A stretch of 34,660 bases of DNA from an uncultured Muribaculaceae bacterium (lineage in GTDB: Bacteria > Bacteroidota > Bacteroidia > Bacteroidales > Muribaculaceae), in NCBI GenBank assembly GCA_947179295.1, contig CAMXAZ010000028.1:1-34660 (forward strand). Direction: 5' to 3'. A program made the position numbers and the translations under genes. Positions 2,010 through 19,714 of this stretch are shown here, piece by piece. Every line of letters begins with the position of its first letter. The stretch's first letter is position 1. The notes beneath the pieces are model-generated. The model was not told where the DNA came from, searched no databases, and saw only the letters and a program-made list of their open reading frames with translations.

Positions 2010-2831
2010 ATGATCCTGTTTCCCAACGCAAAAATCAATCTCGGCCTTGACATTCTGCGCCGTAGGCCTGACGGCTATCATGACATCGAGACCGTGATGA
2101 TCCCTGTCCCCTGGTGCGATGTTCTTGAAATAGTTCCGGCCAAGGGCTGCGAGACCACTCTGACTGTCAGCGGACGCCGGGTGGATTGTCCGCCTGAAAA
2201 AAATCTTGTAATGAAAGCCTACAGGGCTCTCGCCGAGACTGTGGAACTGCCGCCGGTCGACATTTTTCTGCGCAAGATCATCCCCGACGGAGCAGGTCTG
2301 GGAGGCGGATCGGCCGATGCGGCGTTTACACTCCGCGGGCTCAACGAACTCTTCGCACTCGGACTTTCCGACAGCCGGCTTGCTGAAATAGCCGCCGGAC
2401 TCGGAGCCGACTGCCCCTTCTTCATATATAACCGCCCGATGCTGTGCACCGGAATCGGCACGGAATTCACTCCGGCTGAAGTCAGTCTCAGAGGCCTAAC
2501 AATAGTCATTGTCAAGCCGCAGACGAGTGTGCCGACAGCCGAGGCCTACCGCCACACCACTCCGTCCATACCACAGACTCCCATAGCCGAGATCATCTCC
2601 CGCCCGATAAGCGAATGGCGCGGGCGGCTTAAAAACGACTTCGAACCGTCGGTATTTCCCGCCTACCCTTCAGTCAGCGAGATCAAGGAGAAAATGGAAG
2701 GACTCGGAGCCGTCTACACCTCCATGTCAGGTTCAGGCTCATCGGTCTACGGCCTCTTCGACAATGACATTTTGGCAGACTGTCTGACAGAGACTTTCGC
2801 CGGTTCGGCTGTGTTCAGTTCAAAACTCTGA
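2010..2831 (+). CDS. ispE: 4-diphosphocytidyl-2-C-methyl-D-erythritol kinase (IspE)
   Basis: Phosphorylates 4-diphosphocytidyl-2-C-methylerythritol at the 2-hydroxyl with ATP, the fourth step of the MEP isoprenoid pathway in the cytosol. The 273-residue protein is a GHMP-superfamily kinase. The substrate-binding start AKINLGL holds the conserved Lys8. The glycine-rich ATP loop IPDGAGLGGGSADAA covers 91-105. GADCPFF near 132-138 carries the catalytic Asp134. GHMP motif 3 (MSGSGSSVYGLF) lies near the C terminus. The length is typical. The start at 2010 puts MILFPNAKINLGL at the N terminus, as in the family. Dxs, the first enzyme of the same pathway, is at 30844-32790. Confidence 0.95.
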   Translation: MILFPNAKINLGLDILRRRPDGYHDIETVMIPVPWCDVLEIVPAKGCETTLTVSGRRVDCPPEKNLVMKAYRALAETVELPPVDIFLRKIIPDGAGLGGGSADAAFTLRGLNELFALGLSDSRLAEIAAGLGADCPFFIYNRPMLCTGIGTEFTPAEVSLRGLTIVIVKPQTSVPTAEAYRHTTPSIPQTPIAEIISRPISEWRGRLKNDFEPSVFPAYPSVSEIKEKMEGLGAVYTSMSGSGSSVYGLFDNDILADCLTETFAGSAVFSSKL

Positions 2832-2957
2832 TACCGCCGTCAGGCATCCGCTTTTTGCTGGGTTATTGAACGTTATGCGCTCCGGTTTGTTGTAAAATCA
2901 GAAAGAGGCATGGCCAAAAGCACGTTTTGTCGGAAAAATCTCTGCCCGGCAGCCATT

Positions 2958-2974
2958 TTGGCAACCTTTTTGCA
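2958..2974 (+). promoter_or_regulatory. Putative sigma-54 (RpoN) promoter of grpE-dnaJ
   Basis: TTGGCAACCTTTTTGCA matches the sigma-54 -24/-12 consensus YTGGCACG-N4-TTGCW. The first block matches 6 of 8 positions and the -12 block 5 of 5, with the obligatory GG-N10-GC spacing. Transcription would start near 2985, leaving about 40 nt of leader before the grpE ATG at 3025. A TTGTCGG half-site at 2928-2934 ends 23 nt upstream. No TAnnTTTG box was found between 2832 and 3024. RpoN use is inferred from sequence only. Confidence 0.6.
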
Positions 2975-3024
2975 TGATATATGAAAATAATCCTACGATA
3001 AATCAAAAAAACGACATAAATATT

Positions 3025-3651
3025 ATGAGCCACAAGCAAAATAACCATCAGGACAACGCCACTCCCCGCAAGGACGAGACTATGGACGGAAATGCAGCCG
3101 TTCTTGACGATGTCCAGGAAGCTTTTGACGAGCAGAATTCTGTCGAAGACGAAGAAAACGCCATCATCGACAAGCAGCTCTCCGATATCGATGCCCTGAC
3201 CCAGCAGCTGAAAGACGCCGAGGCCCAGGTTGAGAAAGAGAAGAAAGAATATCTCTTCCTCATGGCTGAGTTTGACAACTTCCGCAAACGCACTGGCAAG
3301 GAAAAATCAGACATAATCCGCAACGCATCCGAGAGCGTGCTCAAAGGACTGCTTCCAATCGTCGACGACTTCGAACGCGGCCTTGAGGCAAGCGCCAAAC
3401 TCGAAGATCCCTCCTCGATCCGCGAAGGCATGGAGCTGATCTATCAGAAACTTGTCAAATTCCTCGCCGCCAACGGCGTGAAACCCATCGAAAGCAACGG
3501 GCGGCCATTTGACGCCGAACTCCATGAGGCGATAGCTATGGTACCCGTGGCCGATGAATCGCAGAAAGGTATCGTAATCGACACTCCGACCAAAGGATAT
3601 ACAATCAACGACAAAGTGCTCCGCCATGCCAAAGTGGCTGTGGGCCAGTAA
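3025..3651 (+). CDS. grpE: Nucleotide exchange factor GrpE (Hsp70 cofactor)
   Basis: Exchanges ADP for ATP on DnaK and so sets the rate of substrate release in the Hsp70 cycle. The protein has 208 residues from this start. An acidic disordered N terminus is followed by a long charged helix that should form the dimeric coiled coil (roughly 45-105). The GrpE core motif FDNFRKRTGKEK follows, then the beta-wing domain ending in NDKVLRHAKVAVGQ. An in-frame ATG at 2974 was rejected as the start because it is the last base of the -12 promoter element, upstream of the expected transcript start. The dnaJ gene follows after 15 nt, so the two are co-transcribed; dnaK is not in the window. Confidence 0.95.
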   Translation: MSHKQNNHQDNATPRKDETMDGNAAVLDDVQEAFDEQNSVEDEENAIIDKQLSDIDALTQQLKDAEAQVEKEKKEYLFLMAEFDNFRKRTGKEKSDIIRNASESVLKGLLPIVDDFERGLEASAKLEDPSSIREGMELIYQKLVKFLAANGVKPIESNGRPFDAELHEAIAMVPVADESQKGIVIDTPTKGYTINDKVLRHAKVAVGQ

Positions 3652-3666
3652 GCAGCTACTCCACTT

Positions 3667-4827
3667 ATGGCTAACAAAAGAGACTACTATGAAGTGCTCG
3701 GCGTTGACAAAAACGCTGACGAAAAGACCATAAAGAGCGCCTATCGCAAAAAGGCCATCCAGTATCACCCTGACAAGAATCCCGGCGACAAGGAAGCCGA
3801 GGAGAAGTTCAAGGAAGCTGCCGAGGCCTATGACGTGCTCTCCAATCCCGAAAAACGCGCCAAATATGACCAGTTCGGCCACAATATGGGTCCGCAGGGC
3901 TTCCCCGGCGGAGGAGGAGGTTTCCATGCCGGAGGTTTCTCGATGGAAGACATCTTCTCGCAGTTCGGCGACATCTTCGGAGGTGGCTTCGGCAACATGG
4001 GCGGTTTCGAGACCGCCGGAGGCCGTGCCCGCCGCCAGCGCCGCGGTTCCGACCTGCGCATAAAGGTCAAAATGACTCTCGCCGAAATCGCAACCGGAGT
4101 CACCAAGACGCTGAAGATTCCTACTCTTGTCAAAGACACCCACTGTGACGGCACCGGTGCCAAAGACGGCACTGCATTCTCCACCTGCCCCACCTGCGGC
4201 GGTTCAGGCACCGTACTGCGCCAGCAGCAGACCCTGTTCGGCATCTCGCAGTCAGCCGTAGAATGTCCGCAGTGTAAGGGCGAAGGCAAGATCATCAATG
4301 AAAAGTGTAGCTTCTGCCACGGAGAAGGCGTGGTCCGCGAAGACCGCACTGTGACCTTCACCATTCCGGCAGGTGTGGCTGACGGACAGACTCTGACAGT
4401 CAAGGGCCAAGGCAACGCCGCGATCCACGGCGGAGTCAACGGTGACCTCCTTGTGGTCATCGAAGAGATCAAGAGTCCCGAACTCATCCGTGACGGCAAC
4501 GATGTCATCTATAACCTCATGCTCGACATCCCGACAGCCGCTCTTGGCGGATCTGTCGAAGTGCCGACCATCACAGGCCGTGCCCGCCTGAAAATTCCGG
4601 CCGGCACACAACCCGGCAAAGTCCTGCGCCTGCGCGGTAAAGGTCTCCCCTCGACCGACGGCTACGGAACAGGCGACGAACTTATCAACGTCATGGTCTA
4701 CATTCCCGAAAACCTCACCGATGAAGAGAAGAAGACCATCGAGTCGCTGCAGGGCAAGCCCAACATGACTCCCAGTCAGTCGACCAAAGACCGCATCTTC
4801 AGCAAACTCCGCCACATCTTTGAATAA
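3667..4827 (+). CDS. dnaJ: Chaperone DnaJ (Hsp40), first zinc-finger Cys replaced by Asp
   Basis: Delivers unfolded proteins to DnaK and stimulates its ATPase. The 386-residue protein is a full type I Hsp40. The J domain covers 1-70 with HPD in [10 protein letters not shown] near 33-42. A Gly/Phe-rich linker (about 75-125) follows, then the zinc region (about 155-220) and the C-terminal substrate-binding and dimerisation domains. Of the four CxxCxGxG repeats, three are intact (C174/C177, C200/C203, C214/C217). The first reads DTHCDGTG, with Asp157 (codon GAC) where the first Cys should be. Asp can bind zinc, so the site may still be metalated. It is the last gene of the grpE operon; a strong hairpin terminator follows. 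Confidence 0.96.
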
Positions 4828-4863
4828 GACATCCAAATTACAGCCGCAAGGCTCTGCTATATC

Positions 4864-4911
4864 AATTCCCCGTGCCGATAACAAATTTGCAATCCCGGCA
4901 TGGGGAATTTT
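4864..4911 (+). terminator. Rho-independent terminator after dnaJ
   Basis: Arms 4864-4877 and 4896-4909 pair over 14 bp with one G-T wobble and an 18-nt loop. A short T run (4908-4911) follows. It lies 37 nt after the dnaJ stop and separates the chaperone operon from mazG. Confidence 0.75.
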
Positions 4912-4945
4912 GCATCCATACCCACGATATTTGAGATTGATTGAG

Positions 4946-4953
4946 TATCTTTG
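4946..4953 (+). promoter_or_regulatory. Candidate mazG promoter (-7 box)
   Basis: TATCTTTG matches TAnnTTTG and ends 21 nt before the mazG ATG, implying a very short leader. No clear -33 box is seen at 19-20 nt spacing. Confidence 0.5.
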
Positions 4954-4974
4954 CAGTCATAAAAACCAAATATC

Positions 4975-5757
4975 ATGTCACATACCCGCGAGGAAAAAAT
5001 CGAGGCTCTGGGACGGGTGATCGACACGCTTGACATTCTGCGTGTGAAATGTCCCTGGGATGCCAAACAGACCAACGAATCACTGCGACCGAACACCATA
5101 GAGGAAGTCTATGAACTTTGCGACGCTCTCATAAACGAAGACAACGCCAATATCCGCAAGGAGCTCGGCGATGTGCTTCTCCATGTGCTTTTCTATGCCA
5201 AAATCGGCGAGGAGAAAGGCGCCTTTGACATCGCCGATGTCTGCGACGCCCTCAACTCGAAACTGATCTACCGCCATCCGCACGTGTTCGGCAACACTTC
5301 CGTCAACTCTACCGACGAAGTGCTCCAGAACTGGGAGGAACTAAAGTTGAAAGAAAAAGGCGGCAACAAGACCGTGCTTTCCGGAGTCCCCACCGCCCTT
5401 CCTGCAATGATAAAGGCCGACCGCATCCAGGAAAAAGCCGCCAATGTAGGTTTCGACTGGGAAAAACCGGAGCAGGTCTGGGAAAAGGTGCGCGAGGAAC
5501 TCGGCGAATTCGAAGAAGCCGTAGGAGGGATGGATGCCGCTCACCGCGAGGAGGAGATGGGCGACCTGATCTTCAGCATCATCAACGCCGCCCGGCTCTA
5601 CAAGATCAATCCCGAAAACGCGCTCGAAAAAACCAACAAAAAATTCATCAAACGCTTCAATTATCTTGAGGAAAAAGCCCGCGAAGCCGGCAAGACTCTC
5701 AAGGAAATGACACTGGCAGAAATGGATGCGATCTGGGAGGAAGCCAAAAGTCTATGA
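4975..5757 (+). CDS. mazG: Nucleoside triphosphate pyrophosphohydrolase MazG
   Basis: Hydrolyses (d)NTPs to NMPs and pyrophosphate, a cytosolic house-cleaning role that removes abnormal nucleotides and can lower ppGpp-linked stress. The 260-residue protein has the two-lobed MazG layout. The first lobe carries CPWDAKQTNESLRPNTIEEVYEL and the metal-binding helix pair ending in KELGDVLLHVLF. The second carries REELGEFEEAV and EEEMGDLIFSIINAARLY. The EExxE and ExxD acidic positions expected for magnesium are present in both lobes. The length is normal for the cellular enzyme rather than the short phage form. Its stop overlaps the next start by 4 nt (ATGA), so the two proteins are probably translationally coupled. 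Confidence 0.95.
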   Translation: MSHTREEKIEALGRVIDTLDILRVKCPWDAKQTNESLRPNTIEEVYELCDALINEDNANIRKELGDVLLHVLFYAKIGEEKGAFDIADVCDALNSKLIYRHPHVFGNTSVNSTDEVLQNWEELKLKEKGGNKTVLSGVPTALPAMIKADRIQEKAANVGFDWEKPEQVWEKVREELGEFEEAVGGMDAAHREEEMGDLIFSIINAARLYKINPENALEKTNKKFIKRFNYLEEKAREAGKTLKEMTLAEMDAIWEEAKSL

Positions 5758-6530
5758 ACTATAACGAACTGAACGCCCATCAGCGCGATCCCTTTCTCAG
5801 CTTCGATGCCGCGACCCACACCTATACCGTAGGCGACCGGACGCTGACTTCCGTGACAACCATCGTGGAAAGCTGCTTCCCGAAATTCGATGCCGACTAC
5901 TGGGCTGCGCGCAAAGCTCCGTCAATGGGTCTGACTGCTGAGGAGCTGAAAGCCCGGTGGGAGGAAAACGCCCGCCGTTCGCGCGAACTCGGCACAATAA
6001 TGCACGACCGCATAGAGCGCTATTATCTCGGTGACGATTACGGAGATGACGGCGACGCTTATGCCATGTTCCGCCATTTCGCGGCGGCCGAGCGTCTCTA
6101 CCCTTACCGCACAGAGTGGCGCATATATATGGAGGACTACGGTGTGGCCGGCACTCTCGACTTTCTGGAGCGACGCCCCGACGGCACCTTTAATATATAT
6201 GACTGGAAACGGTCAAAAAAGCTTGTCGGTCCTGACGGGCAGACCGAGCGCTCAAGCCGTTTCGGAGCCAAAGGCCTCCACCCGGTGAGACATCTCGACG
6301 ACTGCTCCTACATGCACTATGCACTTCAGCTGAGCATCTACAGATTCATCCTCGAAGAGCGCTACGGAATCGGCATCAGAGAGATGAAACTCGGAGTGTT
6401 CCATCCGGAATGCCCTATGGCCTACATAATCCCCGTCCCCTATCTGCGCATCGAAGCCCAGGCCGTCCTGGCCGACCACCGGCGCAAATTCAAGGCTCAG
6501 ACAGTACAACAGACAGTTAATTTTATTTAA
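5754..6530 (+). CDS. PD-(D/E)XK superfamily (RecB/Cas4-like) nuclease-fold protein
   Basis: Probable DNA nuclease of unknown biological role, 258 residues. The RecB-type active-site pattern can be read in order: His84 in GTIMHDRIERYY, a candidate acid Glu121 (TEWRIY), Asp136 in AGTLDF, DWK at 150-152 (the D-x-K catalytic pair), and Q192-x3-Y196 in LQLSIYRFI. There is no helicase domain and no four-Cys iron-sulphur cluster as in Cas4. No CRISPR array or recombination gene lies nearby. The gene starts inside the mazG stop, so it is co-expressed with a nucleotide-pool enzyme. A housekeeping repair role or an accessory defence role are both possible. The fold is fairly sure; substrate and function are not. 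Confidence 0.75.
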   Translation: MNYNELNAHQRDPFLSFDAATHTYTVGDRTLTSVTTIVESCFPKFDADYWAARKAPSMGLTAEELKARWEENARRSRELGTIMHDRIERYYLGDDYGDDGDAYAMFRHFAAAERLYPYRTEWRIYMEDYGVAGTLDFLERRPDGTFNIYDWKRSKKLVGPDGQTERSSRFGAKGLHPVRHLDDCSYMHYALQLSIYRFILEERYGIGIREMKLGVFHPECPMAYIIPVPYLRIEAQAVLADHRRKFKAQTVQQTVNFI

Positions 6531-6569
6531 AACACGGCAAAAACTGTATCCGTTCTGTCACTATTGCCC

Positions 6570-6577
6570 TATATTTG
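6570..6577 (+). promoter_or_regulatory. Candidate M16 protease promoter (-7 box)
   Basis: TATATTTG matches TAnnTTTG and lies 57 nt upstream of the chosen start at 6635. An in-frame upstream ATG at 6575 falls inside this box, which argues against that start. The -33 region is poor. Confidence 0.5.
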
Positions 6578-6634
6578 CGTCATATAATTGAAATAACACA
6601 AACATTCTCAATTCATTTCACCAAACCACCAATC

Positions 6635-9478
6635 ATGATCAAAGCTACATTCAGATTATTGTCGGCAGCACTCGTCATGGTCTTCATGGCTCTTCCCGGC
6701 ATAATCAGAGCGCAGGATCAGAATCCGATGCTCCAGCCTCTGCCCGTAGACACAGCAGTGCGTATCGGCAAACTGCCTAACGGCCTGACTTACTACATCC
6801 GTCACAACGAATATCCCAAGGGACAGGCGGATTTCTACATCGCCCAGAACGTCGGATCTATTCTTGAGGAAGACAGCCAGAGCGGCCTCGCCCACTTCCT
6901 CGAACACATGTGTTTCAACGGCACCACAAACTTTCCCGGCAATCTGCTCCGCGACTGGCTCGAATCAATCGGTGTGAAATTCGGAGCCAACCTCAACGCC
7001 TATACAGGTGTAGACGAAACTGTCTATAACATCAGTAATGTCCCCGTGGCACGCGAAAGCGTCCAGGACTCCTGCCTTCTCATACTGCATGACTGGGCCA
7101 ATGACCTCACACTCGCTCCTGAGGAAATCGACAAGGAACGCGGTGTGATCCATGAAGAGTGGCGCCGCTCCATGCAGGGCCAGATGCGAATCCTCGAAAA
7201 GATTCTGCCTGACCTCTACCCCGACTCAAAATACGGCCACCGTCTGCCCATCGGCAAGATGGAGATCGTTGACAACTTCCCCTATCAGGCCCTGCGCGAC
7301 TACTATGAAAAATGGTATCGTCCCGACCAGCAGGCCGTGATCGTGGTGGGTGACATTGACGTTGACCGCATCGAAGGCAAGATCAAAGAGATGTTCTCAT
7401 CGATCGAGATGCCTGAAAATGCCGCAGAGCGCGTCTATACCCCCGTGCCTGACCACAAAGGCACTCTCTACGGAATCGGAAGCGACCCGGAACAGAAAAA
7501 TCTTGTAGCCCAGATGATGTTCATCTTCGATCAGATACCCGCTGAAATTAAAAACACCCCTGCCTATTTCGTCAACGGATATATCCAGGCCATGATCTCG
7601 TCAATGATCAACAACCGTCTTAACGAAATCTCATCCAGACCGGATTCCCCCTTTGCCGGAGCCGGAGTTGATTTCGGCGGCTACTTCCTTTCTTCGAAAG
7701 TGAAAGATGCCATGAGCGGATCTGTGGCTTCAAAAAACAATGACATCATAGTGCCTCTCCAGGCCCTCTATCGTGAACTTCTGCGCGCACAGCGCGGCGG
7801 TTTCACCCAGAGTGAATATGACCGCGCGCGCAGCGAATATCTCTCGTCATTCGAGCGCATCTACAACAACCGTGCCACCCGTCAGACCGGCTCGTTTGTA
7901 AGCGAATATGTCAAGAACTTCACTGACAAAGAACCGCTGCCCTCGATCGAGACCGAGTGGGCTCTCGCGCAGGGAATCGCCAACAATGTTCCCCTTGACC
8001 TCATCAACCGGAAGATGGCCGAGGCTGTCACCCCTGACAACCGTGCCGTCATGGTGCTCATGCCTGAAGCTGAAGGAATCACTCTTCCCACCAAGGAGAT
8101 GATCGCCGAAGCACTCTCTGCCGTCGATGCCGAAACCATCGAGGCATTTGTGGATGAAGTCAACTCAGAGCCTCTGATCCCGACCGCACCCGTTGCCGGA
8201 ACAGTGGTAGCCACAACTGAAAACCCGCAGTTCGGAACCATTGACTGGACTCTCTCAAACGGTGCCAAAGTAATTGTCAAGCCCACAAAGTTCAAAGAAG
8301 ACGAAATCATCTTCTCGGCCTATGCCAAAGGCGGCTATTCGGATTTCTCTGACGACTACACCAACACAATTCTCTTCCTCTCGACAGCTCTTCCGGCCCG
8401 CGGTCTCGGCAGCTACACCAACACTGACCTGTCGAAATACACAGCCGGCAAGCAGGTGGCGCTCAACTGCGGATTCGGCAACTACAGTCGCAGCTTCTCA
8501 GGCTCGACCACTCCCAAAGACATCGAGACCCTCATGGAGCTCCTCTACATGAACTTCAAGGATATCGAATTCACTGCTGACGAATTTGCAGCCCTGCAGA
8601 CCGCCTACAGCGGCTTCCTTGCAAATCAGGAAAAGAGCCCCGAATACATCTTCCAGAAGAACATCCTCGCCACTCTCTACGACTCTCCCCGCGCACAGAT
8701 GCTCAACTCTGAGGTAATCAACAAGGCTTCGCGCGAACAGACAATCGAAATAGCCCATGCAATGACAGCCAATGCCGCAGACTGGACATTTGTGTTTGTC
8801 GGCAACGTCAACCCCGAAACCCTCAAGCCTCTCGTCGAGAAATATATCGCATCTCTGCCCGGCGATCCGAAGACTGCCGTGAAGAAGGTCGAGAAATACA
8901 ATCCGGCCCTCTTTATGAAAGGCGGCGACAAGACCGACTCTTTCACTGCCGAAATGTCGACACCCCAGACCCAGGTTGCCATTATCGAAAGCGGCGACAT
9001 GGAATATACCCCCAAAAACGCCATGCTTGCATCAATCGCAGGCCAGATTCTGACCAACCGTCTGATCAAGACCGTACGCGAAGAGATGGGTGCCGTATAT
9101 TCGATCAGCGCCTCCGGCTCACTCGAACGCTCAGGTCTGAACCCCGTAAGCATCGTGTCTCAGTTCCCGATGAAGCCCGAAATGAAAGAAGAAGTCCTCT
9201 CGTTCATCAAAGGCCAGTTCAAGGAAATGGAATCGAATGTCACCGCAGCCGAGCTCAATCCGGCCAAAGAATACATGATGAAGGCATTCACCGCCAACAA
9301 AGAACTCAACGGCCCGTGGCTCTCGGCCATCGTCGGAACGCTTTCAAACGGCGTGGACACATTCAACGGCAATGTCGACACTGTAAGCTCGATCACTCCT
9401 CAGGATGTGATGAACTTCATGAAGGCCATCAACGCACAAGGCAACTACCGTGTTCTCATTCTCGATCCTGCTAAATAA
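6635..9478 (+). CDS. Exported M16 family zinc metalloprotease (PqqL/pitrilysin-like)
   Basis: Predicted periplasmic or envelope peptidase of 947 residues with two tandem M16 halves, which normally close as a clamshell around peptide substrates. A signal peptide (MIKATFRLL followed by a hydrophobic stretch, probable cleavage near IIRA-Q at 26-27) begins the protein. The inverted zinc motif HxxEH is HFLEH at 87-91, and the third ligand Glu168 lies in EIDKERG, the usual distance downstream. The second half (about 500-947) lacks this motif, as expected of the inactive partner domain. The start at 6635 was chosen because it begins the signal peptide and lies downstream of the -7 box. Single-gene transcript with its own terminator. 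Peptide or toxin degradation is inferred; the substrate is unknown. Confidence 0.9.
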   Translation: MIKATFRLLSAALVMVFMALPGIIRAQDQNPMLQPLPVDTAVRIGKLPNGLTYYIRHNEYPKGQADFYIAQNVGSILEEDSQSGLAHFLEHMCFNGTTNFPGNLLRDWLESIGVKFGANLNAYTGVDETVYNISNVPVARESVQDSCLLILHDWANDLTLAPEEIDKERGVIHEEWRRSMQGQMRILEKILPDLYPDSKYGHRLPIGKMEIVDNFPYQALRDYYEKWYRPDQQAVIVVGDIDVDRIEGKIKEMFSSIEMPENAAERVYTPVPDHKGTLYGIGSDPEQKNLVAQMMFIFDQIPAEIKNTPAYFVNGYIQAMISSMINNRLNEISSRPDSPFAGAGVDFGGYFLSSKVKDAMSGSVASKNNDIIVPLQALYRELLRAQRGGFTQSEYDRARSEYLSSFERIYNNRATRQTGSFVSEYVKNFTDKEPLPSIETEWALAQGIANNVPLDLINRKMAEAVTPDNRAVMVLMPEAEGITLPTKEMIAEALSAVDAETIEAFVDEVNSEPLIPTAPVAGTVVATTENPQFGTIDWTLSNGAKVIVKPTKFKEDEIIFSAYAKGGYSDFSDDYTNTILFLSTALPARGLGSYTNTDLSKYTAGKQVALNCGFGNYSRSFSGSTTPKDIETLMELLYMNFKDIEFTADEFAALQTAYSGFLANQEKSPEYIFQKNILATLYDSPRAQMLNSEVINKASREQTIEIAHAMTANAADWTFVFVGNVNPETLKPLVEKYIASLPGDPKTAVKKVEKYNPALFMKGGDKTDSFTAEMSTPQTQVAIIESGDMEYTPKNAMLASIAGQILTNRLIKTVREEMGAVYSISASGSLERSGLNPVSIVSQFPMKPEMKEEVLSFIKGQFKEMESNVTAAELNPAKEYMMKAFTANKELNGPWLSAIVGTLSNGVDTFNGNVDTVSSITPQDVMNFMKAINAQGNYRVLILDPAK

Positions 9479-9551
9479 CCGTCACCACGGTCATCACATA
9501 ATGGTGCACCGGAAGTCTTAAAATACACAGCGATTCACCAGGAAATTTCCA

Positions 9552-9599
9552 AAAGGCGCGCGGCAATCACCCGGATTGCAACGCGCCTTTTGCATTTTT
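9552..9599 (+). terminator. Rho-independent terminator after the M16 protease gene
   Basis: The outer stem pairs 9552-9560 (AAAGGCGCG) with 9582-9590 (CGCGCCTTT), and the inner stem pairs GCAATC 9563-9568 with GATTGC 9574-9579. The following TGCATTTTT supplies the T-rich tail. Confidence 0.82.
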
Positions 9600-9619
9600 A
9601 CGGATTTTTCGTATTTTTG
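9589..9619 (+). promoter_or_regulatory. malQ promoter, overlapping the preceding terminator
   Basis: A -33 TTTG at 9589-9592 and a -7 TATTTTTG at 9612-9619 are separated by 19 nt. The -33 box is formed from the last T bases of the upstream terminator stem. The predicted leader to the malQ ATG at 9727 is about 100 nt and AT-rich; no riboswitch-like structure was recognised in it. Confidence 0.65.
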
Positions 9620-9726
9620 CATCATAAGTACTTCCATGTACAATCTTAACTCATCAATTCCGAACTTAACTGCCAAAAAATCAATTATAATAAATAGAAT
9701 ATACATATCATATATCATACTTACTC

Positions 9727-12405
9727 ATGAAATTGACCTTTAACGTGAATTACCGCACCGAGTGGGGTGAATCTCTCTATCTCACCGGTTCTCCGCTTGC
9801 ACTTGGCGAGGACGATCTCAGCCGCGCAGTGCCGATGAAACTTGTCGGGGCTGAAACCTGGACCGTGCATGTAGAAATTCCCGACACTGTAAAAGAATTC
9901 AGCTACGGCTACATAGTGCGTCATGACAACGGAACTGTCAAAAAGGAATGGGGAAAGCCCCGGCGCTTTGTCCATGCCGCAGACTCCCACATGTTCACTG
10001 TCTACGACCGCTGGCAGGACCAGCCCTGGGACAAACCTTACTACAGCAGCGCATTCACCGACTGCATCTGCCACCGCGGCGACCGCTCGGCGGCCGTGAT
10101 GCCGGCGGCAGGCATGTTGACCCTCAGTGTCGACGCTCCGATGATAGCCCCTGACGAGGTTGTGGCAGTAGCCGGAGAAGCCGCCGCAATGGGTGCCTGG
10201 GCTCCGTCAAAGGCTCTGCGCATGAGTGACGCCGACTACCCGACATGGAAAGTCAACATCCCGGCAGCTGAAATCCAGCCCGGAACAGACTATAAATTCC
10301 TTATACTAAAAAAATCAACCGGCGATGTTGTCGCATGGGAAGCCCGTGACAACCGCCATATAGATCTCACGCTCCAGCGCCCCGACGAGTCAATTGTGGA
10401 TGCCGGACAGCGGCTGGTCAACCCTCTGGCTCCCTGGCGTGGAGCGGGCGTGGCCATCCCTGTATTCTCGCTCCGCAGTGAAGACGACTTCGGTGTCGGT
10501 GATTTCCTTGACCTGAAACTGATGATCGACTGGGCCGCACAGACCCGACAGAATTTCGTTCAGCTTCTTCCGATCAACGACACCACCATGACCGGAAGCT
10601 GGACCGATTCATATCCCTACAATGCGAACTCGACCTTCGCCCTGCACCCCATGTACCTGCGCCTGCAGGCTATGGGCCGGCTGAAAAACGAGGAGCGCCA
10701 GCGCTATTTCGACAATCTGGGCCGCGAACTCAACCGCCTGCCTCAGGTTGACTACGAGCGTGTCAACAACGGCAAAAACGAATTCACCCGCGAGCTTTTC
10801 GCTCAGGACGGAAAAGAAATCCTCGCTTCGGAAGCCTACAAGGCGTTCTTCTCAAAAAATGCCGACTGGCTGATGCCCTATGCCGCATGGTGTGTGCTCC
10901 GCGATCTCAACCAGACCCCCGACATGAGCCGCTGGGGCGAATTCGCAGTCTATGATCCTGAAAAGATCAAAGGATTCATTGCCGACCATCAGCATGACAT
11001 CGACTATGTCTGCTACATACAGTACTTCCTCGACAAACAGATGCGCGAGGTCAGCGACTACGCTTCGGATCGAGGCGTGGCCATCAAAGGCGACATACCT
11101 ATCGGCATCTCGCGTACAAGTGCCGATGCCTGGATCTCACCCCGCCTGTTCAATCTCGACTGCCAGGCCGGTGCTCCGCCGGACGATTTTTCGGTACTTG
11201 GCCAGAACTGGGGATTCCCGACCTACAACTGGGAGGAAATGTCGAAAGACGGTTTCGCCTGGTGGAAATCGCGTTTCCGCAAAATGGCTGAATACTTTGA
11301 CGCCTACCGCATCGACCACGTGCTCGGATTCTTCCGCATCTGGCAGATCCCGATGGATGCCGTCCACGGTCTGCTCGGAGTGTTCAACCGCGCGCTGCCA
11401 TTCAGCCCCGACGAGCTCCGCAACAGCTATGACTTCTGGCTTGACGAAGAGCGCCAGACCCGCCCCTACATCATGGACTATATGCTCGGCGATTTCTTCG
11501 GCGAGACTGCATCGGAGGTGCGTGAGCGCTTCCTCCTCGACGACGGATATGGCCACTACCGCCTGCGCGACGAGGTCAGCACTCAGCGCAAGGTGGTGGA
11601 CTACTTCGCCGGACAGGAAAAGAACGAACGCAACGACCGCATGTGCAACGGTCTCTTAGGCCTGATCGACGAGGTTCTTTTCATCGAAGACCCATATGAA
11701 AAAGGCAAATACCATCCGAGAATCTCGGCCCAGTTCACCTATGCCTACCGTGCGCTGACCGACTACGAGCGCTGGTGTTTCGACCGTCTCTACAACGACT
11801 TCTTCTACCGCCGCAACAATGATTTCTGGTATGGCAAGGCTATGTGGAAGCTTCCGCCGCTTACTGATGCGACAGACATGCTTGTCTGCGCCGAAGACCT
11901 CGGAATGATTCCGGCATGTGTGCCTGCCGTAATGAACAATCTGCAGATACTTGTGCTTGAGATCCAGCGTATGCCGAAAGATCCGAATGCTGCCTTCGGC
12001 AACACCTGGACCTATCCCTACCGCTCTGTGTGCACCACCTCGACCCATGACATGGACGGCATACGCCGCTGGTGGGAAGCCGACCGTGATGCCACACAGC
12101 GTTTCTACAACGAAGTGCTCGGTGAGCCCGGAGAAGCGCCGGCCTATGCCGAGCCGTGGATCTGCGAGCGCATCATCAGACTCCATCTGCAGTCACCCTC
12201 GATGCTCTGCATACTCCCGCTCCAGGACTGGCTGTCGATCGACGGAGTGCTGCGCCGTCAGGACCCGCGCGACGAACTGATCAACATTCCCGCCAACCCG
12301 CGCCACTACTGGCGTTACCGAATGCACCTCACGCTCGAAGACCTCAACTCTCAGAAAGAATTCAACAACCGCATCCGCGAAGAAATCATATCATCAGGCC
12401 GCTGA
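9727..12405 (+). CDS. malQ: 4-alpha-glucanotransferase (GH77) with two N-terminal CBM20 domains
   Basis: Transfers alpha-1,4-glucan segments between malto-oligosaccharides, releasing glucose, in maltodextrin or glycogen metabolism. The 892-residue protein has two starch-binding CBM20 modules (about 1-105, starting MKLTFNVNYRTEWGE, and about 125-225, with GEAAAMGAWAP). The GH77 barrel runs from about 235 onward. Catalytic residues can be placed: nucleophile Asp530 in YRIDHVLGFF, acid/base Glu723 in CAEDLGM, and Asp775 in TSTHDMDG. This architecture resembles plant DPE2 and is common in Bacteroidetes. No signal peptide is seen, so it acts in the cytosol. It stands alone between two terminators, not in a sus-type locus. 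Confidence 0.93.
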   Translation: MKLTFNVNYRTEWGESLYLTGSPLALGEDDLSRAVPMKLVGAETWTVHVEIPDTVKEFSYGYIVRHDNGTVKKEWGKPRRFVHAADSHMFTVYDRWQDQPWDKPYYSSAFTDCICHRGDRSAAVMPAAGMLTLSVDAPMIAPDEVVAVAGEAAAMGAWAPSKALRMSDADYPTWKVNIPAAEIQPGTDYKFLILKKSTGDVVAWEARDNRHIDLTLQRPDESIVDAGQRLVNPLAPWRGAGVAIPVFSLRSEDDFGVGDFLDLKLMIDWAAQTRQNFVQLLPINDTTMTGSWTDSYPYNANSTFALHPMYLRLQAMGRLKNEERQRYFDNLGRELNRLPQVDYERVNNGKNEFTRELFAQDGKEILASEAYKAFFSKNADWLMPYAAWCVLRDLNQTPDMSRWGEFAVYDPEKIKGFIADHQHDIDYVCYIQYFLDKQMREVSDYASDRGVAIKGDIPIGISRTSADAWISPRLFNLDCQAGAPPDDFSVLGQNWGFPTYNWEEMSKDGFAWWKSRFRKMAEYFDAYRIDHVLGFFRIWQIPMDAVHGLLGVFNRALPFSPDELRNSYDFWLDEERQTRPYIMDYMLGDFFGETASEVRERFLLDDGYGHYRLRDEVSTQRKVVDYFAGQEKNERNDRMCNGLLGLIDEVLFIEDPYEKGKYHPRISAQFTYAYRALTDYERWCFDRLYNDFFYRRNNDFWYGKAMWKLPPLTDATDMLVCAEDLGMIPACVPAVMNNLQILVLEIQRMPKDPNAAFGNTWTYPYRSVCTTSTHDMDGIRRWWEADRDATQRFYNEVLGEPGEAPAYAEPWICERIIRLHLQSPSMLCILPLQDWLSIDGVLRRQDPRDELINIPANPRHYWRYRMHLTLEDLNSQKEFNNRIREEIISSGR

Positions 12406-12443
12406 TACCACGCCCAAGATTAAGTTTAATAACCTCTGAATAT

Positions 12444-12487
12444 ATTGCCTGCAGACGGAACTGCCATCCGGTCTGCGGGCAATTTTT
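12444..12487 (+). terminator. Rho-independent terminator after malQ
   Basis: ATTGCC-T-GCAGACGG (12444-12458) pairs with CCGTCTGC and GGCAAT across a 9-nt loop, and TTTTT ends at 12487. It lies about 40 nt after the malQ stop. An in-frame ATG starting directly at 12488 is therefore an unlikely start for the next gene. Confidence 0.82.
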
Positions 12488-12598
12488 ATGCTGTACCACA
12501 CGTTTTATCTAAAGCAGAACAATCATATCAATCTCAGAGGTAAAAAACAACGACCTCTTAATTCCTTGAACGAAAAAATATTTGACTCTATAAACATC

Positions 12599-13588
12599 AT
12601 GGTACAGAAAAAACGGGTTGACTATATAGATTATCTTAAAGGACTTACTATTTTATGGGTAGTATGGTATCATACCGCTCATCCGGAATTTGTTGATTAT
12701 CCACCAACAATGCCTATGTTTTTCTTTGTGTCAGGCATTTTTTTTAAGCCGTATCCTTTACAGGAATTTATAAAAAAGAAAATCAACACTCTTCTGATAC
12801 CGTTCGTATTCTTTTATGTGGTATATTACATCTATCTGATATTGCAATGGAGCATACATAACCCTTTGTCAAATTTCGATTTTTCATGCTTCTGGGGAAT
12901 TTTCAGGCTCTATAAATCTACGGAGTCGTTTCCTGTCAATCCTCCCTTATGGTTTATCTGCGCCCTGATCAACCAGCAGTTTTTAATATACCTCCTCGTT
13001 AAAGTAAAACTAAAACGAGTTGCAATCGGAATTTCAGCATTATTAATATCGCTATTCGGGGTTTTCTATTTCTACGATGTAAAAACACCATTTATGATTA
13101 GCCGCTGTCTGCCATATTTCATATTTTATTCAATGGGATACCTGACAGGAAGGCATATTTTATCTCTGATTGAAGGAGAGCACGGTATAAAAGCATCACG
13201 ACGGCTTGGTCTTTGCGGGCTAACTGTATTTATACTCTGCTGGTTTATCAAATCGACATATAACGTAAACCATTACCTTGGAACCATAGTTTCTTATTCC
13301 GAAATTTTTGCTTTCATATTATTAATGATCTATCTTTTAAAGTATTCTTACAAACTCCCATTTTTGAGATTTTTGCATTTTTACGGAGTTAATTCATACA
13401 TCGTTCTTGGAATGCATGAAATTGTACTGACCATATATCTGATATGTTTCACAAATTTATTTGGACAACCTGGTATTCCGGGTGGAATAATAATTCTCAT
13501 ACTCACCACTGCTACACTTTGGCCTGTGATACGAATTCTAAATAACCTTTGCCCGCAACTTATAGGGAAAAATGAATTATGGAAATAA
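12599..13588 (+). CDS. Membrane acyltransferase, acyltransferase-3 family (OafA/WecH-like)
   Basis: Integral membrane protein of 330 residues with about ten hydrophobic segments, probably O-acetylating a surface glycan or sugar. Family marks are the start RVDYIDYLKGLTILWVVWYHT with the conserved His25 in the first membrane helix, FFFVSGIFF, the basic loop before LLIPFVFFYVVYY, and PPLWFICALI. The acceptor cannot be predicted. The start at 12599 was chosen because upstream in-frame codons from 12488 begin at the malQ terminator and encode no recognisable sequence. The gene is clearly AT-rich (roughly 35-40% GC by eye, flanks well above 50%) and uses codons its neighbours avoid, which suggests horizontal acquisition. 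No glycan gene cluster lies next to it and no good promoter was found. Confidence 0.85.
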   Translation: MVQKKRVDYIDYLKGLTILWVVWYHTAHPEFVDYPPTMPMFFFVSGIFFKPYPLQEFIKKKINTLLIPFVFFYVVYYIYLILQWSIHNPLSNFDFSCFWGIFRLYKSTESFPVNPPLWFICALINQQFLIYLLVKVKLKRVAIGISALLISLFGVFYFYDVKTPFMISRCLPYFIFYSMGYLTGRHILSLIEGEHGIKASRRLGLCGLTVFILCWFIKSTYNVNHYLGTIVSYSEIFAFILLMIYLLKYSYKLPFLRFLHFYGVNSYIVLGMHEIVLTIYLICFTNLFGQPGIPGGIIILILTTATLWPVIRILNNLCPQLIGKNELWK

Positions 13589-13645
13589 AAAATCTATTCT
13601 TTCCGGTCTATGGTCGGCAAAAAGGACCTTATAAAATACAACAAA

Positions 13646-13670
13646 CCGGCTGCTGAGAAGCAACCGGCTG
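13646..13670 (+). terminator. Weak hairpin between convergent genes
   Basis: CCGG-c-TGCT (13646-13654) pairs with AGCA-a-CCGG (13659-13667) with a 4-nt loop and one mismatch, followed by a TGTTT tail. It lies 57 nt after the acyltransferase stop and 50 nt before the stop of the convergent DUF2400 gene. The 9-mer AACCGGCTG is also directly repeated here. Confidence 0.45.
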
Positions 13671-13717
13671 TTTCTATCGCCGAGTGATCGGTCATAAGAG
13701 ATTGTAAAAACACCCTC

Positions 13718-14485
13718 TCAGAGTTTCATTCCTATGCCAAAGAGGGCGAAGTCATAGACGGTCGGGTCTGAGGGGTTGAACCGGCGCAGGTGGGCTGTGA
13801 CCTCATCGACTGCCTTGCGGTCATTGGCCTTGCGTGTCAGCAGGCCAAGTTCGCGCGAGATGTCTCCGACATGTACGTCAAGCGGGATGTAGAGCTGCGA
13901 GGGTTCAAGCACATCCCAGACTCCGAGGTCGACTATACCGTCGTTTCTGACGAGCCACCGCAGGGCCATGTTGACTCGCTTCAAAGCCGAAGTGGTCAGA
14001 TTCTGCGGCAGACAGCGCGAGGCAAGATCAGATTTTCCGGGGTCAGCAGCCGCAAGCTCTCGGTTTATACCCGCGACAAGCGCCCAGGCAGGTGCTTCGG
14101 AAGAGGCCACATGCTCATGACGCGCAAAGTCCTGCAAAGTGCCGTGTCGGGAATAAATTTCACGCAGTCCACGCAGATAGTGCTTGAGATGGCGGATGAA
14201 AAATGTGCGGTGCACGTTGACTTCGTCAGGCAGCGATTCATAAGCCTTGTCCATCATGAAGCGGTATGGGCTGTTGTCCATCATGGCCAGCAATTTGTCG
14301 CAGTCGCGGCATATCATCTTACGGTTGCCCCAGGCGATGCCCGAAGTGAGCAGGGAGGCTATCTCTATGTCACGCAGATCTGAAAATCTGCGCGGAAACT
14401 GAACAGGATCATCACCAATAAAAGACGGCGAGTTGATTCTCGCCGCCTCTGTATCAAGAAGATCCTTAAGATCTCTGTCTGTCAT
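13718..14485 (-). CDS. TIGR02757 / DUF2400 family protein
   Basis: Conserved Bacteroidetes protein of 255 residues with no established function. The family is recognised from the C-terminal block: KRVNMALRWLVRNDG, DLGVWDVL, QLYIPLDVHVG, LGLLTRKANDRKAV and DPTVYDFALFGIGMKL. The N terminus contains DPVQFPRRF and SLLTSGIAWGNRKMI. The helical content and the LDxHV segment recall helix-hairpin-helix DNA glycosylases, but no catalytic Lys/Asp pair could be assigned with certainty. It follows the TlpA-like gene on the same strand with a 30-nt gap and is probably its operon partner. No signal peptide; cytosolic. Confidence 0.85.
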   Translation of the reverse strand: MTDRDLKDLLDTEAARINSPSFIGDDPVQFPRRFSDLRDIEIASLLTSGIAWGNRKMICRDCDKLLAMMDNSPYRFMMDKAYESLPDEVNVHRTFFIRHLKHYLRGLREIYSRHGTLQDFARHEHVASSEAPAWALVAGINRELAAADPGKSDLASRCLPQNLTTSALKRVNMALRWLVRNDGIVDLGVWDVLEPSQLYIPLDVHVGDISRELGLLTRKANDRKAVDEVTAHLRRFNPSDPTVYDFALFGIGMKL

Positions 14486-15780: not shown

Positions 15781-17430
<1,650 letters not shown>

Positions 17431-17452: not shown

Positions 17453-17728
17453 TTATTTCTCAAGAACAGCCAGAATGTCGCTCTGACGCATGATGAGATA
17501 TTTGGTGCCTTCGAGTTCCACCTCAGAACCTGCATATTTTCCGAAAAGGACTTCATCGCCGGCCTTTACAACCATTTCTTCGTCCTTAGTGCCGTTGCCG
17601 GTTGCAACCACGGTGCCGCGGAGAGGTTTTTCCTTGGCGGTGTCAGGAATGATGATGCCTGCGGCGGTGACTTCTTCTGCAGGAGTGGGTGTGATGAGCA
17701 CTCTGTCAGCTAATGGTTTGATATTCAT
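17453..17728 (-). CDS. groS: Co-chaperonin GroES (Hsp10)
   Basis: Heptameric lid of the GroEL chamber. The protein has 91 residues, standard for the family, with the N-terminal strand [14 protein letters not shown], the mobile loop [18 protein letters not shown] that contacts GroEL, and [18 protein letters not shown]. It is the first gene of the operon. From the putative sigma-54 promoter the leader would be about 100 nt long and is AT-rich near the start codon, without a Shine-Dalgarno sequence. The upstream region carries no CIRCE element (TTAGCACTC-N9-GAGTGCTAA). Confidence 0.97.
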
Positions 17729-17835: not shown

Positions 17836-17852
17836 AGCATAAACCGTGCCAG
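17836..17852 (-). promoter_or_regulatory. Putative sigma-54 (RpoN) promoter of groES-groEL
   Basis: The minus strand reads CTGGCACGGTTTATGCT. Against the consensus YTGGCACG-N4-TTGCW the -24 block matches 8 of 8 and the -12 block 4 of 5, with exact GG-N10-GC spacing. Transcription would start near 17826. A second element of this kind precedes grpE-dnaJ, which makes chance less likely. An RpoN activator (AAA+ enhancer-binding protein) would be required; none is encoded in this window. Confidence 0.68.
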
Positions 17853-17862
17853 TCTTCATCTG

Positions 17863-17893
17863 TGTCAGTCGGAACTGACAATTTGTCAATTCC
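17863..17893. promoter_or_regulatory. TGACA/TGTCA palindrome array upstream of groES
   Basis: Positions 17871-17893 form a 23-bp palindrome with 11-bp arms, one mismatched pair and a single central base; the core is TGACAATTTGTCA. An additional TGTCAG at 17863-17868 pairs with the CTGACA at 17875-17880 as a second, overlapping inverted repeat. The palindrome lies 18 nt upstream of the putative -24 element and just downstream of the -7 box at 17910-17917. It could bind an RpoN activator or a repressor of the upstream promoter. Confidence 0.65.
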
Positions 17894-17974: not shown

Positions 17975-18703
17975 TCAGCCCTTGCAGCCTTTGCGCAGCC
18001 CGCTTTCTATTTCACGGTAAGACTCTTCCATCAGCCGGGTCTGGTCATGGCCGTCGGCAGAGGGATGGATTGGTTTGTGGATTGTCAGGCAGATATGGCC
18101 CGGCACCGGCATTTTCTTGAAACGCGGCAGCACGTCAAAGGCGCCGTCGATTGTCAGAGGCACCACCGGGAGGTTGAACTCGATGGCCAGACGGAAGGCA
18201 CCTTTCTTGAAACGGGCCATCTCTCCGGTCCATGAGCGCGCACCTTCGGGGAAGACCACAAGTGACATGCCTCCGCTCAGCTGGCGTTCGGCCTGCTGCA
18301 TGGTGCGGCGTGTGGCCGATGCCGAGGAATTGTCGACGAAGATCTGCTGCGACCAGGCACATGCCCAGCCTACAAATGGGATCTTGCGCAGACTCTGCTT
18401 CATCATCCAGCGGAAATTATGGCCGAGATAACCGTAGACGGTAAAAATGTCATATGCCCCCTGATGGTTGGCCACGAAAACGTAGCTCACTTTAGGGTCG
18501 ATATTCTCCCGGCCCCTGACAGTCACTCTGACAAAGGCAAGCCAGCAGAAAAGCCGGGCCCAGAGCACCTGCGGATAGTAGCCCCACCAGCGCCCGAAGC
18601 CGAGCGCCGAACCGGTCACCGTGACCACGGCAGCAATGACAGTGGCCACCGCAAGCAAAGGAATCATTATCAGAATCTGATAAATGCGATAAAAGATCAT
18701 CAT
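17975..18703 (-). CDS. plsC: 1-acyl-sn-glycerol-3-phosphate acyltransferase (PlsC family)
   Basis: Adds the second acyl chain to lysophosphatidic acid to make phosphatidic acid, at the inner membrane. The protein has 242 residues from this start. One or two N-terminal hydrophobic segments (about 8-30 and 45-62) anchor it. The acyltransferase motif HX4D is NHQGAYD with His80 and Asp85, motif III is FPEGARS at 151-157, and VPLTIDGAF is the later conserved block. The start at 18703 was preferred over an in-frame ATG at 18739 because that codon lies upstream of the -7 box (18727-18734). Monocistronic; no convincing terminator follows. Related lysophospholipid acyltransferases cannot be excluded. 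Confidence 0.88.
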   Translation of the reverse strand: MMIFYRIYQILIMIPLLAVATVIAAVVTVTGSALGFGRWWGYYPQVLWARLFCWLAFVRVTVRGRENIDPKVSYVFVANHQGAYDIFTVYGYLGHNFRWMMKQSLRKIPFVGWACAWSQQIFVDNSSASATRRTMQQAERQLSGGMSLVVFPEGARSWTGEMARFKKGAFRLAIEFNLPVVPLTIDGAFDVLPRFKKMPVPGHICLTIHKPIHPSADGHDQTRLMEESYREIESGLRKGCKG

Positions 18704-18726
18704 GGAATTTGTGTGCTTAAGACACA

Positions 18727-18758
18727 CAAAAGTACACATTATTCCCTATATTTTCAAA
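18727..18758 (-). promoter_or_regulatory. plsC promoter
   Basis: Minus strand TTTG (18758-18755), 20-nt spacer, TACTTTTG (18734-18727). This is the same layout as the TlpA-like gene promoter and an exact consensus match. It places the transcript start near 18721, which decides the plsC start codon. Confidence 0.78.
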
Positions 18759-19039: not shown

Positions 19040-19714
19040 ATGTGGTTAACTTGCTCATCTATAGGGAGGAAGTTCGTGATGGCTCTCACGGGCTTATGCC
19101 TTGTCCTATTTGTCACGTTTCACTGTCTGATGAACGGTGTGGCTATCTTCTGGCCCGACGGTTATAACGCAGTCTGCGCATTCCTTGGCGCCAACTGGTA
19201 TGCACTGGTTGCATCAATGGGCCTCGCCGCGCTCTTCATCATTCACATCTGTTATGCCGTATGGCTGACCCTTCAGAACCGCAAGGCCCGTGGCAACGAC
19301 CGCTACGACGTGGTTCGCAAACCCGCTCAGGTTGAATGGGCATCGCAGAACATGCTCGTGCTCGGTATCGTGATCCTCGCATTCCTCGTTGTCCACCTCA
19401 TCCAGTTCTGGGCAAAAATGCAGCTCGCCGAAATCATGGGCATCCATGAACCCGACCCGCAGAACGGCATGTACTTCATCAATGTGGCATTCAGCTGCAT
19501 CTGGACCCCGATCATCTACATCATCGGCTTCATCGCTCTCTGGTTCCACATGAACCACGGCTTCTGGTCAATGTTCCAGAGCTGCGGCTGGGACAATGAC
19601 ACCTGGCTCCCCCGCCTCAAGACAATCGGCTGCTGGTGGACCTCGATCGTTGTCATCCTCTTCATCATCCAGGCAATCGTGTTCACAATCCGTGCCAGCA
19701 ACGGATGTTTCTAA
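19040..19714 (+). CDS. sdhC: Succinate dehydrogenase/fumarate reductase cytochrome b subunit
   Basis: Di-haem membrane anchor that exchanges electrons between menaquinone and the soluble subunits. The 224-residue protein has five predicted membrane helices (about 12-32, 52-77, 103-125, 148-168, 198-218), the single-subunit type B anchor seen in epsilonproteobacterial and Bacteroidetes enzymes. SSIGRKFVMALTG at 6-18 is the family start. Histidines suited as haem ligands lie inside helices: His28, His69, His119, and His170 or His173 in WFHMNHGFW. It is first in the operon, 32 nt before the flavoprotein gene. In an anaerobe the physiological direction is probably fumarate reduction, so frdC would be an equally good symbol. 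Confidence 0.93.
   Translation: MWLTCSSIGRKFVMALTGLCLVLFVTFHCLMNGVAIFWPDGYNAVCAFLGANWYALVASMGLAALFIIHICYAVWLTLQNRKARGNDRYDVVRKPAQVEWASQNMLVLGIVILAFLVVHLIQFWAKMQLAEIMGIHEPDPQNGMYFINVAFSCIWTPIIYIIGFIALWFHMNHGFWSMFQSCGWDNDTWLPRLKTIGCWWTSIVVILFIIQAIVFTIRASNGCF

Follow-up and report, generated by a model that had tools for sequence, protein, structure and literature searches.

A putative sigma-54 promoter and a candidate sensor-less activator for the groES-groEL operon of an uncultured Muribaculaceae bacterium

The DNA analysed here, referred to below as the window, is a stretch of 34,660 bases from an uncultured Muribaculaceae bacterium that carries two identified chaperone operons, groES-groEL (groESL) and grpE-dnaJ, on opposite strands (Table 1). 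A single groES match was found in this genome. The region between groES and the acyltransferase gene upstream of it contains an element, CTGGCACGGTTTATGCT (minus strand, 17852..17836), that a sequence-only reading had proposed as an RpoN promoter, and both its sequence and its coordinates are as given there. It agrees with the consensus YTGGCACGNNNNTTGCW at 12 of 13 defined positions, the single miss being an A for the first T of TTGC, and the GG and GC pairs stand exactly 10 nt apart (GG-N10-GC), as had also been claimed. The distance to the groES start codon, earlier put at 108 nt upstream, comes to 107 nt between 17836 and the ATG at 17728. Judged by the position of the -12 element, transcription of groESL would start about 12 nt downstream of 17837.

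Table 1. Genes and predicted regulatory features of the window
Feature	Position	Strand	Basis or remark
groES, 91 aa	17453..17728	-	Cpn10 PF00166, 1.8e-30
groEL, 545 aa, directly downstream of groES	15781..17418	-	PF00118, 7.5e-75
Acyltransferase gene, immediately upstream of the putative groESL promoter; its stop bounds the intergenic region	17975..18739	-	PF01553, 2.9e-29
Putative sigma-54 -24/-12 promoter element CTGGCACGGTTTATGCT	17836..17852	-	GG 17850-17849, GC 17838-17837; 12/13 to consensus
Predicted transcription start	17825	-	Placed 12 nt past the -12 C by reference to that element
Proposed activator site, three TGNCA pentamers	17863..17888	-	Pentamer enrichment and phasing across relatives
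Individual pentamers	TGACA 17884-17888; TGTCA 17876-17880; TGACA 17863-17867	-	Centres 34, 26 and 13 nt upstream of the promoter's first base
Second sigma-54-like element TTGGCAACCTTTTTGC, before grpE-dnaJ	2958..2973	+	10/12, GG-N10-GC
grpE	2974..3651	+	GrpE PF01025, 2.6e-44
dnaJ	3667..4827	+	DnaJ, DnaJ_C and central-domain Pfam matches

The groES element is the sole site at 12/13 in the window. Given that shuffled windows hold a mean of 0.18 sites at this level, the match alone is suggestive but not decisive, and conservation is what decides. Five sites reach at least 11/13, namely the groES site, a site at 2958 on the plus strand before grpE, and those at 19698, 19296 and 7878, the last three lying inside long open frames of the ORF list; the groES and grpE sites precede both chaperone operons identified in the window. 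The grpE frame opens at 2974, directly after its sigma-54-like element, and the next in-frame ATG, at 3025, reads MSHKQNN. With a predicted +1 near 2985 and a frame that abuts the element, the start at 2974 is probably too early, and the true grpE start is probably 3025.

Loss of the element in relatives had been set beforehand as a refuting condition, and the element was instead found to be kept across the bacterium's own family. A GG-N10-GC element with at least 10/12 agreement lies within 200 nt of groES in 60 of 70 family genomes, compared with 0.5% of shuffles of the same upstream regions, which rules out a chance match. Under a looser rule (at least 9/12, 230 nt) the 70 family loci divide into 61 strict, 7 relaxed and 2 without an element (L180, L199), the 65 loci from other families of the order into 20 strict, 41 relaxed and 4 without, and the 45 loci from the class outside the order into 12 strict, 30 relaxed and 3 without; for these looser-rule counts, loci without a found start codon (10, and 11 more), dropped at first, were restored by their coordinates. 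The genomes examined, among those with groES, were 70/143 for the family, 65/93 for the order (own genome and G013 excluded), 44/48 for the class and 23/147 for other classes, the class set holding one genome twice (G196) and the other-class set likewise (G189); being related, they are not independent in these conservation counts or in the pentamer counts below. The own-family set was taken as Muribaculaceae, the nearest named matches of the activator EBP2 (see below) belonging to that family. Within the family the distance from element to ATG varies from 59 to 124 nt and the surrounding sequence changes, but TTGGCACG and TGC are retained, as would be expected of a bound element. The TGGCACG columns of 68 family promoters show C in 66, A in 66, C in 64 and G in 51; because a relaxed site was by definition the top TGG-type match within 230 nt, these column counts contain TGG and the -12 G by construction.

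A shorter pattern, TGGCA-N7-TG[ACT], for which the chance rate is 0.2-1.1%, was found in 62/71 family loci (one family genome, L172 and L256, being counted twice here and once in the 70-genome counts), 33/54 order loci, 25/36 class loci and 3/23 other-class loci. The -12 dinucleotide becomes less regular with distance, with 27 GA, 11 GT, 22 GC and 1 GG in the order outside the family and 22 GA, 5 GT and 15 GC in the class outside the order. The frequency of GA and GT makes the sigma-54 reading weaker there and leaves it strongest in the bacterium's own family.

Elements of the form GG-N10-G(C/T) also precede htpG, grpE-dnaJ, clpB and clpC. Across the genus, 16 of 22 htpG loci have the element before the gene (15 with GG-N10-GC, 1 with GT), 5 of 22 lack it and 1 of 22 has no found start; 23 match rows were available, of which 22 were examined and one (L328) was left out. 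In one genus genome (G152; L326, L328) htpG appears split into two frames with a stop, possibly through an assembly or sequencing error. For grpE, GGC-N4-TTTTTG(C/A/T) stands upstream in 16 of 18 genus loci, the present one included (9 GC, 5 GA, 2 GT). The clpB and clpC genes of this genome, recognized by look as were clpB and clpC in the fetched relatives, are preceded by TCGGCATGATTTTTGT and TTGGCACAATTTTTGT, respectively. A genome scan with a one-mismatch pattern returned 164 matches against 164 for the reversed control, so pattern counts alone do not define a regulon; the exact TTGGCACGN5TGC gave 68 matches in 21 genus genomes against 29 for the control. Perfect sigma-54-like sites were also seen 43-51 nt before a gene for a protein of about 490 aa in L075, L086 and L094 (at about 1500), and the one such sequence tested, a 487-aa stretch of L075, had no Pfam or NCBIfam match.

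The absence of rpoN from the genome would have spoken against a sigma-54 promoter; a complete gene was found on contig C53, encoding 478 aa with activator-interacting, core-binding and DNA-binding domains by Pfam. PF00158 has two strong matches in the genome (228 and 222 bits), which were the only strong sigma-54 activators found and are called EBP1 and EBP2, and two weak ones (37.4 and 26.9 bits), which are Clp ATPases by eye; at a genome completeness of 95%, a third activator might have escaped detection. EBP1, encoded on contig C20 with a histidine kinase gene after it, is a response regulator of receiver-AAA+-Fis architecture. It stands at the end of an operon for HlyD, ABC and outer-membrane efflux proteins (Pfam) and four membrane proteins that are FtsX-like, a naming made by eye here as in the fetched relatives. 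This operon opens with its own sigma-54 site, TTGGCACGATTAATGC, other members of the genus have perfect sites ahead of the same gene (L072, L093, L095), and a palindrome, TGTCCGAAATCGGACA, lies upstream. The efflux operon together with EBP1 and its histidine kinase (C20:18500-34500 of the own genome; operon at about 2590-14143 of locus L207) looks autoregulated. With this operon's site, TGGCACG-N5-TGC gains support as the sigma-54 site of the organism, and EBP2 is left as the activator available to groES. EBP1, with an operon of its own and a different palindrome, is an unlikely activator of groES.

Candidate promoters of other types were also considered. Between 17400 and 18400 the plain sigma-70 consensus has two matches, none of them between groES and the upstream gene, and a plain sigma-70 promoter in the groES leader is rejected. 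This genome has a TAATTTTG box at -189 from the groES ATG, similar to the -7 motif of Bacteroidota housekeeping promoters, and the box is also present upstream in a close relative (L006). With TAnnTTTG found in only 15 of the 70 family upstream regions, and at varying places, the box was rejected as not conserved. It might still be argued, from this box and from the GA or GT so often found at -12 outside the family, that the conserved element is an operator or some other sequence merely resembling a sigma-54 promoter and that a housekeeping or other sigma factor transcribes groESL. We consider this very improbable, as exact GG-N10-GC and most of TGGCACG are kept in the 68 family promoters, the same spacing recurs before other chaperone genes and before the operon encoding its own NtrC-type activator, and the housekeeping-like box is both infrequent and scattered.

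A milder proposal, which is compatible with a sigma-54 promoter here, is that the sigma-54 start is secondary and stress-specific and that basal groESL transcription comes from a housekeeping promoter. Cells ordinarily require GroEL continuously, and the box at -189, shared with L006, could serve such a promoter. No second conserved promoter-like element stood out, however, when the groES upstream regions of the relatives were read, and the single housekeeping-type match is not conserved, nor is there a sigma-70-type match in the leader, so that we find this arrangement rather unlikely. The preferred reading remains that groES-groEL is transcribed from a sigma-54 promoter.

The sequence-only reading had noted no HrcA/CIRCE signal at this operon, and the wider comparison agrees: CIRCE half-sites are present in 0/70 family, 0/65 order and 0/45 class groES loci, in all 0 of 180 inside the class against 17 of 24 upstream loci outside it. 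HrcA (PF01628) has no match in this genome. Of 198 phylum genomes 111 have it, every one of them from another class, against 0 of 49 genomes of the own class (this one and 48 class members), the own order being represented in the count by this genome only. With neither half-site nor hrcA match, HrcA/CIRCE control of this groES is rejected. Outside the class, the 19 loci of genomes with HrcA include 17 with CIRCE half-sites and none with TTGGYAYR upstream, whereas all five loci of HrcA-less genomes have it ahead of groES and are free of CIRCE half-sites; this 8-mer was chosen after seeing the elements and would be expected in about 3% of loci by chance if bases were even. The five (L127, L145, L147, L156, L161) have TTGGCAC- or TTGGTAC-type elements before groES, three of them with GG-N10-GC, while those of L127 and L156 lack the GC of -12. 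Sigma-54-type elements, as defined by sequence, and HrcA/CIRCE are mutually exclusive in the loci sampled. Chaperonin repression by HrcA/CIRCE accompanies groES in other classes of the phylum and is seen in neither of its parts in the own class, and the system proposed here would follow the opposite logic, activation in place of repression. In excerpts of a 2013 study on Porphyromonas gingivalis, heat-shock promoters are likewise described as having no CIRCE, and a different mechanism is assumed (PMC3646045).

EBP2, the candidate activator, is a protein of 422 aa encoded at C16:45754-47019. It consists of an AAA+ domain (residues 22-189; PF00158, 3.4e-65), a lid (194-266) and a Fis-type HTH (378-419; PF02954, 1.3e-13), and Pfam finds no N-terminal receiver or other sensor domain, the AAA+ match starting at residue 22. 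The GAFTGA loop reads GSFTGA, and 32 aligned sequences show GSFTGA, GAFTGA or GAYTGA. In the AlphaFold model (mean pLDDT 76) a 29-residue helix spans 288-316, residues 324-376 fall under pLDDT 50 and the HTH occupies 379-419. The helix, located between the ATPase and the DNA-binding domain, is conserved in the alignment (ERE-LYKVLFDM-KD-NDLKK) and is a possible docking site for a regulator. PspF, the sensor-less sigma-54 activator of the phage-shock response, is likewise built of AAA+ and a Fis-type HTH, and EBP2 residues 16-263 match PspF structures. What sets EBP2 apart is its conserved helix and some 50-60 disordered residues ahead of the HTH, and the PspF NCBIfam equivalog scores it at 276.8, under the cutoff of 443.55.

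EBP2 orthologs (E<=1e-100) are present in 94 of 99 genomes of the order. By the coordinates of best matches, 43 of 92 order genomes have EBP2 within 8 kb upstream of groES and on its strand, the distance being 1.6-5.8 kb, and the same linkage, at the same distances, holds in 33 of 45 class genomes outside the order (G231, G239 and G297, with no listed groES place, left out). The two genes are on different contigs in 45 of the 92, the own genome included (C16 and C28), which is partly assembly fragmentation, and unlinked on one contig in 4 more; 12 of the 45 class genomes outside the order are also unlinked. Among 80 titled EBP2 loci groES is found downstream in 29, and 13 end less than 4 kb after EBP2. 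The gene order EBP2 - LptE - a protein of about 300 aa - SecG - groES - groEL is seen in five titled loci (Flavobacterium orientale, Galbibacter orientalis, Labilibacter marinus, a Bacteroidales MAG and Maribacter litoralis), with LptE and SecG confirmed by Pfam in two of the five and groEL in the fetched relatives named by eye. We read this neighbourhood as a sign of an old functional association, not as proof of one. RpoN control of groES-groEL, the central proposal of the sequence-only reading, is supported by the presence of rpoN, conservation of the element in the family, true sigma-54 activators in the genome, and orthologs of the candidate near groES in much of the class. From the sequence evidence, a sigma-54 promoter at groESL is very probable, and its activation by EBP2 is likely.

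The DNA upstream of the promoter offers a candidate binding site. The three TGNCA pentamers at groES form the dyads TGACAAATTGTCA and TGTCAGTTCCGACTGACA. In the 80 nt upstream, 68 family promoters contain 188 TGNCA sites against about 20 expected at a uniform 1/256, and 114 and 112 sites were counted in 61 order and 42 class promoters, respectively. Their centres cluster in the family at 13-16, 23-26, 33-35, 44-46, 54-57 and 64-66 nt; the best periods are 10.3, 10.5 and 10.2 bp and the vector strengths at 10.5 bp are 0.54, 0.61 and 0.68 for family, order and class. Seven control pentamers gave at most 41 sites, far fewer than TGNCA, but some small control sets showed comparable phasing (class AGNCT, 13 sites, 0.72; order TCNGA, 30 sites, 0.45; family GTNAC, 41 sites, 0.42), so that the enrichment is the firmer observation and the phasing the softer one.

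The phased array comes down to about -40, where the pentamer centred 13 nt from the promoter's first base would stand relative to the predicted start. A pentamer centred 11-17 nt upstream is found in 45/68 family, 13/61 order and 21/42 class groES promoters, and the -40 pentamer is therefore not universal. Elsewhere in this genome pentamers are centred at 13 and 43 nt before the htpG promoter and at 13 nt before that of clpB, next to 13, 26 and 34 nt at groES, and the pentamer lies at 12-14 nt in 16 of 16 genus htpG loci with the element. No TGNCA occurs within 90 nt of the grpE or clpC promoters of this genome, or of the EBP1 operon promoter. Sigma-54 enhancers usually lie further upstream, at about -80 to -150, and act by looping. 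EBP2 is the proposed binder of the array, and, as far as the structural model goes, the disordered tether could let a promoter-proximal EBP2 dimer reach the polymerase.

The array may also be assigned differently. The sigma-54 promoter would be real, but the array would belong to another regulator, for example a response regulator or repressor resembling RprY, and a different activator would open the complex. The array is unusually close to the promoter, grpE and clpC are without it, and EBP2 is unlinked to groES in this genome, all of which fits such an arrangement. Against this, the genome has yielded only two strong activators, one of which, EBP1, has its own operon and palindrome; the EBP2-groES neighbourhood is conserved; and TGNCA repeats at a centre spacing of 10-11 bp suit dimeric Fis-type sites. 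The NifA site is TGT-N10-ACA. In the P. gingivalis study, excerpts report that the response regulator RprY binds the groES, dnaK and clpB promoter regions by EMSA, which speaks for a regulator of this kind, but that it did not bind htpG, whereas htpG of the present genus has the array (PMC3646045). On balance we consider this assignment unlikely.

The explanation we prefer, to which we give a probability of roughly three in four, joins the RpoN promoter, EBP2, the TGNCA array and a wider control of chaperones. Sigma-54 RNA polymerase would wait at 17852-17836 as a closed complex, the opening of which would require an activator that burns ATP. This activator would most likely be EBP2, which this genome encodes elsewhere and whose orthologs, in much of the class, have their genes a short way ahead of groES. 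As a bare sigma-54-activating AAA+ protein with a conserved helix, a long disordered tether, a Fis-type HTH and no sensor, EBP2 would bind the phased pentamers that end at about -40, and its tether would reach the polymerase. Stress would presumably induce the operon, a signal being routed to EBP2. The htpG and clpB genes would probably be driven likewise, and grpE-dnaJ and clpC perhaps so. A device shared across these genes would stand in for HrcA/CIRCE as the chaperone and heat-shock control of the lineage.

A chaperonin operon under sigma-54 has a counterpart in Bradyrhizobium japonicum, where groESL3, one of several groESL copies, is under NifA and sigma-54, and the likeness extends to the Fis-type activator. 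That operon is tied to nitrogen fixation, being co-regulated with nitrogen-fixation genes (PMC6604987), whereas here one groES match is present and the control looks like general chaperone control. The idea of RpoN-dependent groESL is already known as a prediction for the Bacteroidota: excerpts of a 2025 computational survey in PLoS One report that GroEL, GroES, IbpA, GrpE, DnaJ and DnaK are enriched for predicted sigma-54 promoters, list Hsp90 and ATP-dependent proteases also among the predicted targets, and state, citing a Blattabacterium paper, that GroES of B. thetaiotaomicron is sigma-54-dependent (PMC12316311). The chaperone cluster described there makes the same claim at the phylum level, and in those excerpts it comes with no named activator, enhancer array, EBP2 linkage or HrcA/CIRCE exclusion. 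The open-access literature searched yielded nothing on a link between EBP2 and groESL, on the phased array near the promoter or on the mutual exclusion with HrcA/CIRCE.

More tentatively, and with considerable doubt, the observations can be drawn into one evolutionary reading. The class of Bacteroidales and Flavobacteriales may have ancestrally swapped HrcA/CIRCE repression for sigma-54 activation of the whole chaperone set, with the sensor-less EBP2, born or kept beside groESL, as the heat-shock master regulator. EBP2 might then act without a loop from the phased TGNCA array, the last pentamer touching the polymerase at about -40 and the tether swinging the ATPase onto sigma-54, while the signal might arrive through a partner protein, perhaps a chaperone, on the conserved helix; other HrcA-less classes may share a version of this system.

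The regulation of chaperones in Bacteroidota is left open in print, to judge from excerpts of the P. gingivalis study (PMC3646045). Sigma-54 promoters are silent without an activator, and so, if the preferred reading is true, chaperonin synthesis in this lineage would be gated by an ATP-driven switch. Its regulator would be encoded by one gene, open to deletion and testing, and might prove to be a sigma-54 activator that works right next to the promoter; the class as a whole would have a heat-shock system under positive sigma-54 control.
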